Below, one piece after another: positions 4,875-59,895 of a DNA stretch of 64,000 bases. The notes below the pieces were generated by a model. The model was not told the origin of the DNA, did no database searches, and saw only the letters and a program-made list of their open reading frames with translations. The number at the start of each line of letters is the position of its first letter. Positions within the stretch are counted from its first letter, which is position 1. The DNA lies in NCBI RefSeq assembly GCF_034092465.1, contig NZ_CP139303.1:1330865-1394864 (forward strand). Reading direction: 5' to 3'. The translations under genes were made by a program, and so were the position numbers. The DNA is from Prochlorococcus sp. MIT 1223 (GTDB taxonomy: Bacteria; Cyanobacteriota; Cyanobacteriia; PCC-6307; Cyanobiaceae).

Positions 4875-4938
4875 AATCATCTAAAAGCAAGCCGAATATT
4901 TTTTCGGAAGCTGCGTAGTTAGATCTCGAATTAGTGCA

Positions 4939-5562
4939 ATGCCTTTTGAAAATCAACAGCGGCTAACCCGTAGGAGAAGCTCTGCAGGACCAACACCTCC
5001 AAGAAGACCTCTAGGGGGTGAATCAGATTCAATGCGTCAAGGGCCTAGGCCAACATTCTTGACACTGAGAGATCATGGCAAGGTATATGTTGCTGAATTG
5101 CCTAATCTTTCTGATGGCCAATTAGCCCATATCTCTAAAGAAGTTGAAGAGGTTCTAGAAAGTCTTGAGAGGCGTATACAAGATTTGCAACAGGAAACTA
5201 GTAATGGTTTTCGAGATAATGACACCTTAATCAAAGCAACAACTAAGCATGAGGTGACCCAGAGATTTATAAGTGCTATCCAAGACGAACAAGAGCATCG
5301 TAGAAATAATCCTGCATTGAAAGATGCTGCTTCTGAATCTTTACCATTAACGTTTTTAGAAGTTGCTCGACATCGTTTACCAGGTGCTACTTTTGACTCT
5401 TTATTACGAGAGGCTCTAGAAGCTTGTGCTCAAGATGAAAAAGCAATAAATGAAGATGTTCTTAAAGATAAAACTTCCTCGAGCTCTATTCCTGAAAAAA
5501 TTATTGATCTTCCATCTCCTTCTCAAAATGGGATGCCAGTAGTAGTAAGTCCTGATTCGTAA
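4939..5562 (+). CDS. Conserved picocyanobacterial protein of unknown function
   Basis: I do not recognise a named family. The 207-residue protein has a basic, proline-rich and probably disordered N-terminus (about 1-40: RRRSS, TPPRRPLGG). A middle section (about 45-105) reads as amphipathic helix with LSDGQLAHISKEVEEVLESLERRIQDLQQE, which looks coiled-coil capable. A compact helical part follows (about 105-160: LTFLEVARHRLPGATFDSLLREALEACAQ), then a polar tail. There is no signal peptide or membrane segment, so it is probably cytoplasmic. It follows purM in the same direction after 156 nt. Confidence 0.7.
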   Translation: MPFENQQRLTRRRSSAGPTPPRRPLGGESDSMRQGPRPTFLTLRDHGKVYVAELPNLSDGQLAHISKEVEEVLESLERRIQDLQQETSNGFRDNDTLIKATTKHEVTQRFISAIQDEQEHRRNNPALKDAASESLPLTFLEVARHRLPGATFDSLLREALEACAQDEKAINEDVLKDKTSSSSIPEKIIDLPSPSQNGMPVVVSPDS

Positions 5563-6420: not shown

Positions 6421-6485
6421 TAATGGACACTCCTCACACAAGTTTGTCCAGTAGGGCGCTGCTCGATGAGGGCGCCCATTTCTTA
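6421..6485 (+). ncRNA. Putative Yfr10/Yfr1-type sRNA, copy 1
   Basis: The 11-mer ACTCCTCACAC (6429-6439) is identical to the ultraconserved unpaired motif of the cyanobacterial sRNA Yfr1, which the Yfr10 family shares. Here it lies in the 17-nt loop of a hairpin (stem TGGAC 6424-6428 with GTCCA 6446-6450). Four nt later comes a GC-rich terminator-like stem, GGGCGC 6454-6459 with GCGCCC 6472-6477. A weak promoter may precede it (ATGACT at 6389, CATTAT or ATTATG near 6410). That gives an RNA of about 60 nt. The motif held in a loop, rather than between two stems, fits Yfr10 better than Yfr1. The 5' end is inferred. Confidence 0.68.
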
Positions 6486-57705: not shown

Positions 57706-57742
57706 TGCTTGAATAAGCTGTTATTTCTTGGATTAATCAGTG
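57706..57742 (+). promoter_or_regulatory. Shared upstream cassette, copy 1
   Basis: TGCTTGAATA at 57706-57715, then GGATT at 57730-57734 just before the GTG start at 57740. The same TGCTTGAATA ... GGATT ... GTGG order and spacing (34 nt from the T of TGCTTG to the GTG) recurs before the 58882 and 59534 genes. GGATT may be the Shine-Dalgarno, and TGAATA may be part of a -10 element. Confidence 0.6.
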
Positions 57743-58777
57743 GCAGTGAAGAAAGCAGCAGAGGCGAAGAAAGCAGCTGAAGTGAGGAAAGCAGCAGAGG
57801 CGAAGAAAGCCGCTGAAGTGAGGAAAGCAGCTGAAGCGAAGAAAGCCGCTGAAGTGAGGAAAGCAGCTGAGGCGAAGAAAGCAGCTGAAGTGAGGAAAGC
57901 AGCTGAAGCGAAAAAAGCAGCTGAAGTGAGGAAAGCCGCTGAAGCAAAGAAAGCAGCAGAGGCGAAGAAAGCCGCTGAAGTGAGGAAAGCCGCTGAGGCG
58001 AAGAAAGCAGCTGAAGCGAAGAAAGCAGCAGAGGCGAAGAAAGCAGCTGAAGCGAAGAAAGCAGCAGAGGCGAAGAAAGCCGCTGAGGCGAAGAAAGCCG
58101 CTGAGGCGAAGAAAGCAGCTGAAGTGAGGAAAGCAGCTGAAGCGAAAAAAGCAGCTGAAGTGAGGAAAGCCGCTGAAGCAAAGAAAGCAGCAGAGGCGAA
58201 GAAAGCCGCTGAAGTGAGGAAAGCCGCTGAAGCAAAGAAAGCAGCTGAAGCGAAGAAAGCAGCTGAGGCGAAGAAAGCCGCTGAAGTGAGGAAAGCCGCT
58301 GAAGCAAAGAAAGCAGCTGAAGCGAAGAAAGCAGCTGAAGCGAAGAAAGCCGCTGAGGCGAAGAAAGCAGCAGAGGCGAAGAAAGCAGCTGAAGTGAGGA
58401 AAGCAGCTGAGGCGAAGAAAGCAGCTGAAGTGAGGAAAGCAGCTGAGGCGAAGAAAGCAGCTGAAGCGAAGAAAGCAGCAGAGGCGAAGAAAGCCGCTGA
58501 AGTGAGGAAAGCAGCTGAGGCGAAGAAAGCAGCTGAAGCGAAGAAAGCAGCTGAGAGGAGAAAAGTAAAAGCTTTAAATCAAAACAAAACAGGAATCAAG
58601 GCTCAATCCGTTTTGCAAAAGGATAAAAAATCTGTTTCTGAAGAAAAGAGAGCAAAAAGAAATGAGTTATTGACTGTTTCTATTTCTGTAAATACAGGAA
58701 AAATCGCTAGCATCGTTGCTGTTGGAATTATTGCTTCAGCTTTACTAGTTGCAGCCCTTAGTTTTGTGGCAATGTGA
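57740..58777 (+). CDS. Hexapeptide-repeat, tail-anchored helical protein
   Basis: 345 residues, GTG start. After MAVKKA come 44 exact six-residue units, AEAKKA (31 times) or AEVRKA (13 times), then one broken unit. A lysine-rich linker (about 277-313) and a single C-terminal hydrophobic helix (about 322-344, ending FVAM) follow. The E-to-K spacing (i+3, i+4) favours a stable rod-like single helix, like TolA domain II in composition, but anchored at the other end. About 264 residues of helix would be roughly 40 nm long. The end NELLTVSISVNTGKIA resembles the 44-aa protein at 59534. It may be a spacer, tether or scaffold; function unknown. Confidence 0.75.
   Translation: MAVKKAAEAKKAAEVRKAAEAKKAAEVRKAAEAKKAAEVRKAAEAKKAAEVRKAAEAKKAAEVRKAAEAKKAAEAKKAAEVRKAAEAKKAAEAKKAAEAKKAAEAKKAAEAKKAAEAKKAAEAKKAAEVRKAAEAKKAAEVRKAAEAKKAAEAKKAAEVRKAAEAKKAAEAKKAAEAKKAAEVRKAAEAKKAAEAKKAAEAKKAAEAKKAAEAKKAAEVRKAAEAKKAAEVRKAAEAKKAAEAKKAAEAKKAAEVRKAAEAKKAAEAKKAAERRKVKALNQNKTGIKAQSVLQKDKKSVSEEKRAKRNELLTVSISVNTGKIASIVAVGIIASALLVAALSFVAM
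57758..58549 (+). repeat. 18-bp coding repeat tract, 44 units
   Basis: Forty-four 18-bp units in one frame, with synonymous variation mainly in GCT/GCC/GCA and GAA/GAG. The segment 57866-57996 (131 bp) is repeated without change at 58100-58230, an offset of 234 bp or exactly 13 units. This shows recent segmental duplication within the tract. Such a tract should vary in length between strains and is prone to assembly error. Confidence 0.9.
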
Positions 58778-59499: not shown

Positions 59500-59536
59500 T
59501 GCTTGAATATGTTTGTTTATATAGGATTCTCCAGTG
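59500..59536 (+). promoter_or_regulatory. Shared upstream cassette, copy 3
   Basis: TGCTTGAATA at 59500-59509, GGATT at 59524-59528 and GTGG at 59534. The spacing is 34 nt, identical to copy 1. The sequence between, ATGTTT, is also shared with copy 2. Confidence 0.6.
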
Positions 59537-59668
59537 GCTGAAAAACAAGGAAATGAGTTAGCAAGCATATCTGTTTATTTGAACACTCCTATAGCAGCTG
59601 TTCTTTTGGGAGTTGGATTTATCCTCGGATCTGTCTTGTTTGCTGGTGTGATGCTCATTGCTCGTTGA
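59534..59668 (+). CDS. 44-residue membrane protein, related to the end of the repeat protein
   Basis: A small protein with a GTG start: MAEKQGNELASISVYLNTP, then a hydrophobic helix to the end (IAAVLLGVGFILGSVLFAGVMLIAR). NEL-(A)SISVYLNT-IA aligns with NELLTVSISVNTGKIA of the repeat protein, and both start MA with K nearby. It is a probable tail-anchored membrane protein. No named family recognised; it is not one I know from photosystem or NDH small subunits. The shared cassette supports it as a real gene. Confidence 0.65.
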   Translation: MAEKQGNELASISVYLNTPIAAVLLGVGFILGSVLFAGVMLIAR

Positions 59669-59752
59669 TCAAAATGAAGTAAAAAGGTAGATTTTGATCT
59701 GTATAAAATTTCATCGTTGACACTCTGGTATATCCGTGCCTAGAAAAGAAAA

Positions 59753-59818
59753 GTCAGAACACTCCTCACGCAATTAGTTCTGATAATTAGGGCACCTCGT
59801 GAGCAGGGTGCCCTTTTT
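59753..59818 (+). ncRNA. Putative Yfr10/Yfr1-type sRNA, copy 2
   Basis: A 7-bp hairpin (TCAGAAC 59754-59760 with GTTCTGA 59777-59783) displays ACTCCTCACGC in a 16-nt loop, one base from the Yfr1/Yfr10 motif. An 8-bp terminator follows, AGGGCACC 59789-59796 with GGTGCCCT 59807-59814, then a T run. Upstream is TTGACA (59717-59722) with TAGAAA 18 nt later, so the start is probably about 59753. The build (loop motif, short spacer, GC terminator) is that of copy 1 at 6421, with little other sequence shared. Confidence 0.75.
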
Positions 59819-59895
59819 AATGAGAAAATACCTGAGAAGCTATGAAAAGCATTTAGTTATATACACCTTCTTTTCTTTCTATTTTTGACAAAACT

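Follow-up and report, generated by a model that had tools for sequence, protein, structure and literature searches.

A yfr10-type small RNA gene read from the genome sequence of Prochlorococcus sp. MIT 1223, and its relatives in two scaffold classes

Introduction

In marine Prochlorococcus, the small RNA (sRNA) Yfr10 tunes photosynthesis and carbon metabolism with its partners Yfr1 and Yfr2. The motif common to Yfr1, Yfr10, Yfr12 and Yfr18, their multicopy nature and a suspected partnership with Yfr2 were described in 2008, with Northern and 5'RACE support for the Yfr10 family (PMC2518516), and a 2019 study put the Yfr2 partnership to the test (PMC6778093). In MED4 Yfr10 the motif sits in a hairpin loop; the RNA binds Yfr2, and Yfr2 bound to Yfr1 or Yfr10 is protected from RNase E cleavage in vitro (PMC6778093). 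In the same work, 253 mRNAs were pulled down with MED4 Yfr10, specific targets included atpA/atpC and csoS1/csoS2, a footprint on ppa was lost when the seed UCCU was changed, and one hour in the dark raised Yfr10 2.4-fold (PMC6778093).

The window analysed here is a 64,000-nt stretch of the Prochlorococcus sp. MIT 1223 genome (1.796 Mb, one contig), and coordinates refer to it unless a locus or model is named. An initial annotation, made from the letters of the window, had placed an sRNA gene at 59753-59818 and a second one of the same layout at 6421.

Results

The gene at 59753-59818

The locus was compared with its syntenic counterpart in the Prochlorococcus single-cell genome AG-402-N21 (G001). 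Its features are as follows.

59717..59722, +, -35-like element TTGACA (sequence; identical in AG-402-N21)
59741..59746, +, -10-like element TAGAAA after an 18-nt spacer (non-consensus for sigma-70; recurrent in the family)
~59753, +, expected transcript start (predicted position)
59753..59818, +, whole yfr10-type sRNA gene, ~66 nt (Rfam RF02362 match 59753-59828)
59753..59760, +, left arm of the seed hairpin, GTCAGAAC (sequence and fold; 8/8 identical in AG-402-N21)
59761..59769, +, seed ACTCCTCAC in the hairpin loop (sequence; 9/9 in AG-402-N21; complements the anti-seed of 3/3 Yfr2)
59770..59776, +, variable 3' part of the loop, GCAATTA (4/7 kept in AG-402-N21)
59777..59784, +, right arm of the seed hairpin, GTTCTGAT (sequence, fold and syntenic comparison)
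59789..59818, +, predicted intrinsic terminator with a 9-bp stem, 8-nt loop and T run (sequence; 29/30 identical in AG-402-N21)

The seed hairpin has a stem of 8 bp (seven Watson-Crick pairs and one outer G-U) and a loop of 16 nt, ACTCCTCACGCAATTA, at 59761-59776. A 4-nt spacer separates it from the terminator, whose arms AGGGCACCT (59789-59797) and GGGTGCCCT (59806-59814) form nine pairs, with the T run extending to 59818. Folding gave -24.7 kcal/mol (z = -3.6) and recovered both hairpins. An enclosing stem of at least 8 bp followed by a terminator was found at 16 of 42,548 sampled positions in the window, and CTCCTCA occurs 11 times, so about 0.004 occurrences of CTCCTCA inside such a stem with a terminator would be expected by chance. 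The coordinates, the layout and the start of the loop had been given correctly by the initial annotation, which took the stem for 7 bp, quoted 11 of the 16 loop nucleotides and counted eight terminator pairs instead of nine. Its proposal that an sRNA gene at this place displays a conserved seed is supported.

Upstream, TTGACA was read at 59717-59722, 30 nt before the expected start, and both TTGACA and TAGAA are retained in syntenic AG-402-N21. The promoter had been called strong, which is the one weak point of that description: the -10 is off consensus, and a strict sigma-70 scan called no promoter at the locus because of TAGAAA. Elements of the types xTGAC and TAGAA/C recur at near-constant spacing across 111 upstream regions of the family and occur together in 49, so the different promoters proposed for its members are not simply unrelated.

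Assignment to the Yfr10 family

The locus matches Rfam Yfr10 (RF02362) over the full model (1-78) with 43.9 bits and a genome-wide E of 1.6e-5, barely over the gathering score of 43. By sequence and fold, the core ACUCCUCAC is displayed in the hairpin loop, and the sequence predicts a short RNA with an intrinsic terminator. The motif agrees with the published 11-mer ACUCCUCACAC at 10 of 11 positions, with A changed to G at position 10; after the seed, the loop continues with GC. Shared with MED4 Yfr10 are the loop seed of a 5' hairpin, a short spacer, a terminator and the CAGAA/TTCTG stem core, whereas the motif end (CACGC versus CACAC), the outer stem pair and the terminator sequence differ. 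Unlike Yfr10 of high-light strains, the copy has no adjoining yfr2: there was no Yfr2 match in the window, and the nearest lies more than 200 kb off. A downstream yfr2 is a feature of high-light strains and not defining for Yfr10, and the synteny is reported as unconserved.

Yfr1 (RF01116) has the same seed core and complementarity to Yfr2, but its motif is a single-stranded stretch between two hairpins at the guaB/trxA locus; at 59753 the motif sits in a hairpin loop, and the gene at guaB-trxA is a different one. MED4 Yfr12 and Yfr18, compared by description only, are likewise same-motif sRNAs of one genome (PMC2518516), Yfr12 differing in its mutated motif. The Yfr2 family (Rfam Cyano-1, RF01701) is the partner, with the complementary GUGAGGAG in its 5' part; its motif polarity is opposite and its structure different (GGAAAC loop). 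Judged from its sequence, the 59753 locus is a genuine sRNA gene of the already described Yfr10 family; it is not a new design, as the family is named and its motif is common to Yfr1, Yfr12 and Yfr18 (PMC2518516, PMC6778093).

The syntenic locus and neighbouring ORFs

The AG-402-N21 yfr10 is flanked by the same neighbours, a 44-aa ORF and a 161-aa ORF. Between the two loci, the arms (16/16) and the seed (9/9) are identical, followed by the terminator (29/30), the promoter region (31/36), the rest of the loop (4/7), the downstream ORF (340/486, ~70%) and the sequence after the terminator (42/77). A fixed seed and fixed arms with a free loop remainder are what a seed-displaying hairpin would predict.

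The 44-aa ORF (59534-59668, +), small and membrane-like (MAEKQGNELASISVYLNTPIAAVLLGV...), lies upstream of the sRNA; besides AG-402-N21, it is found in L020 near a 6421-type sRNA. Further upstream, an ORF at 57740-58777 (+) consists almost entirely of KKAAEA/KKAAEV repeats with a membrane-like C-terminal segment, and similar repeats also precede the syntenic yfr10 of L142 and lie close to yfr10 in L017.

Same-seed and anti-seed genes in MIT 1223

Yfr1 is present at the guaB-trxA locus (L001, 59.9 bits with RF01116; both genes named from gene sequence). The second hairpin locus, in the layout claimed for it, was read from the sequence as follows.

6424..6485, +, second Yfr10-type sRNA (sequence; used with four others to train model R1, below)
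6424-6429/6445-6450, +, TGGACA hairpin
6429-6437, +, seed ACTCCTCAC
6454-6477, +, terminator

This copy scores 21.8 bits with RF02362, under the cut-off of 43, and is therefore named only Yfr10-like. The genome search gave three Yfr2 genes over the Cyano-1 cut-off, and all three contain GTGAGGAG, which is exactly complementary to the seed core. The earlier picture of two same-seed hairpin loci is thus right as far as it goes but incomplete, Yfr1 and three complementary Yfr2 supplying the mechanism. A third ACTCCTCACNC outside Yfr1 (L002) was rejected as a chance occurrence, as it falls within an ORF that follows a ribosomal protein S1 leader; the leader is of the cyanobacterial type (RF03151) and lies at L002:539-621 (+).

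Spread of the family and stem covariation

Relatives fall into two scaffold classes. The first, with the 59753 copy, has CAGAAC- or CAGAAA-type stems; the second, with the 6421 copy, has GGACA, CGACA or CGAGA stems and a GGGCGCTGCTCGATGAGGGCGCCC-like terminator, and scores only ~20-30 bits with RF02362, below the cut-off. A custom model of the second class (R1) was built from five sequences including the 6421 copy. R1 matched at E <=0.1 in 51 of 101 family genomes, a count that includes the five sequences on which it was trained and which are bound to match it; a portion of the weakest hits belongs to the first class or is due to chance. The loop core CTCCTCAC is present in 74 of the 84 R1 matches, and some of the ten matches lacking it are antisense or spurious. 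Outside the syntenic comparison, seed conservation is over-stated, as members were partly found via the motif. Most of the weak RF02362 matches (L018, L019 and L026, for example) proved to be bare terminators and were dropped. Of 60 pattern stretches, five fall in unrelated bacteria, about the chance level. Neither phage records (blastn) nor IMG/VR viral contigs gave a match, so nothing points to carriage by phages.

The 6421 copy is syntenic in G011, G017, G040, G065, G066, G078 and G150, where alignments cover the flanking gene (4884-5450) and, from ~8746, a gene or tRNA. Several Prochlorococcus genomes have 3-7 Yfr10-type copies, often within a few kb, and copies often lie 100-160 nt upstream of a Yfr2. 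In L151, L160, L191 and L171, from other Prochlorococcus, Yfr10-type clusters span 2-20 kb with several copies at this distance from Yfr2, and some copies in these clusters are decayed. A multicopy family with one seed, as the initial annotation had supposed, is therefore right, though already known from Yfr1, Yfr10, Yfr12 and Yfr18.

The supposition that stems vary in sequence and keep pairing also holds, with compensatory stem changes across ~100 distinct relatives. Covariation was counted on alignment A3 and at fixed coordinates. In 22 distinct ungapped fixed-coordinate hairpins, the inner five stem pairs were paired in 110 of 110 cells, pair 2 occurring as CG, GC or AT and pair 5 as CG, GC, AT or UG; the observed total stem pairing was reached by none of 2000 shuffles, a procedure that leaves relatedness in. 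Loss of the loop with the stem kept, which the initial annotation had named as counting against the idea, was seen in a few paralogues (for example L153:1237-1298, ACTCTTCAC) that resemble MED4 Yfr12, and the family as such is not refuted.

Pairing with Yfr2 and targets

Cofolding differences were used in place of RNAduplex energies of full-length RNAs, which ignore self-folding. The 59753 RNA paired with Yfr2 seed on anti-seed, with a ddG of -7.9 to -8.2 kcal/mol beyond self-folding, against 0.0 with the anti-seed changed in silico and about -1.5 for shuffles. In the same model, Yfr1 cofolded more strongly with Yfr2 (-13.1 to -17.1 kcal/mol); the weaker Yfr10 value would fit a seed held in a closed loop. 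With two of the three Yfr2, the G at motif position 10 makes a U-G pair out of a U-A one; few relatives carry this G (L040 in the R1 alignment, and L134). Genome-wide, GTGAGGAG is not enriched near ATG (11 sites versus 11 for a reversed-pattern control), and among the first ORFs with the anti-seed near ATG none was recognised as a known target.

Discussion

The 59753 locus is very probably a Prochlorococcus yfr10 gene, encoding a seed RNA opposed by Yfr2. It would yield a ~66-nt terminator-ended RNA in which the 8-bp hairpin displays ACUCCUCAC as a single-stranded seed, and this seed would pair with mRNAs having GUGAGGAG-like sites, probably altering their translation or stability. The three Yfr2, each with GUGAGGAG, would act as antagonists or sponges, so that Yfr1, the 6421 copy and the 59753 copy may face the three Yfr2 as RNAs that share the seed and differ in scaffold and promoter. 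By analogy, the expression, the Yfr2 and target binding and the darkness response of MED4 would carry over to MIT 1223. Against this reading count the narrow Rfam margin, the G at motif position 10, the missing neighbouring yfr2, the off-consensus -10 and the lack of anti-seed enrichment near ATG.

The RNA could instead serve chiefly as a decoy for Yfr2, through RNase E protection or titration, with few mRNA targets of its own. Perfect complementarity of 8-9 nt to all three Yfr2 genes, the missing enrichment of the anti-seed near start codons and the protection of Yfr2 from RNase E cutting by Yfr1/Yfr10 in vitro (PMC6778093) all speak for such a role, but it is hard to square with the 253 mRNAs pulled down by MED4 Yfr10 and the UCCU-dependent footprint on ppa (PMC6778093), and we regard it as possible though on the whole unlikely. 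That the copy is a paralogue gone silent or in decay, as with MED4 Yfr12, and retained by chance is quite improbable: the arms, the 9-nt seed, the terminator and the promoter elements are conserved in AG-402-N21 next to flanks at ~70%, against which stand the changed motif position 10, the weak -10 box and the decayed paralogues known elsewhere in the family.

The 44-aa ORF ends on the same strand 84 nt upstream of the hairpin, and the structure might be the terminator or attenuator at its 3' end and not an sRNA gene at all. The seed hairpin and a -35/-10 pair intervene, however, the same RNA element adjoins quite different genes in other genomes, and the match is to an RNA family with Northern/5'RACE support (PMC2518516), which makes this explanation extremely improbable.

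The idea of a same-seed multicopy family was already known, since motif sharing, loop position, Yfr2 binding and dark induction are published for MED4. The additions are modest: a widespread subfamily below the Rfam cut-off, several genomes with 3-7 copies, a series of syntenic loci and the G found here at position 10 of the motif. It is a doubtful but conceivable extension that one seed has been expanded in Prochlorococcus on two or more scaffold classes (CAGAAC-type, and G/CGACA- or CGAGA-type), the second of them largely missed by the present Rfam model. Copies would number as many as seven in an incomplete genome, often next to a Yfr2, and the response to light and nitrogen would depend on how many seed genes there are relative to anti-seed genes, not on any single sRNA.

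The Yfr1/Yfr10/Yfr2 network is placed by these results in another Prochlorococcus lineage, with one Yfr1, two Yfr10-type genes and three Yfr2. The compensatory changes show that the role of the hairpin is the display of a fixed 9-nt seed, and the under-annotated 6421-type subfamily points to more Yfr10-type genes than Rfam shows.
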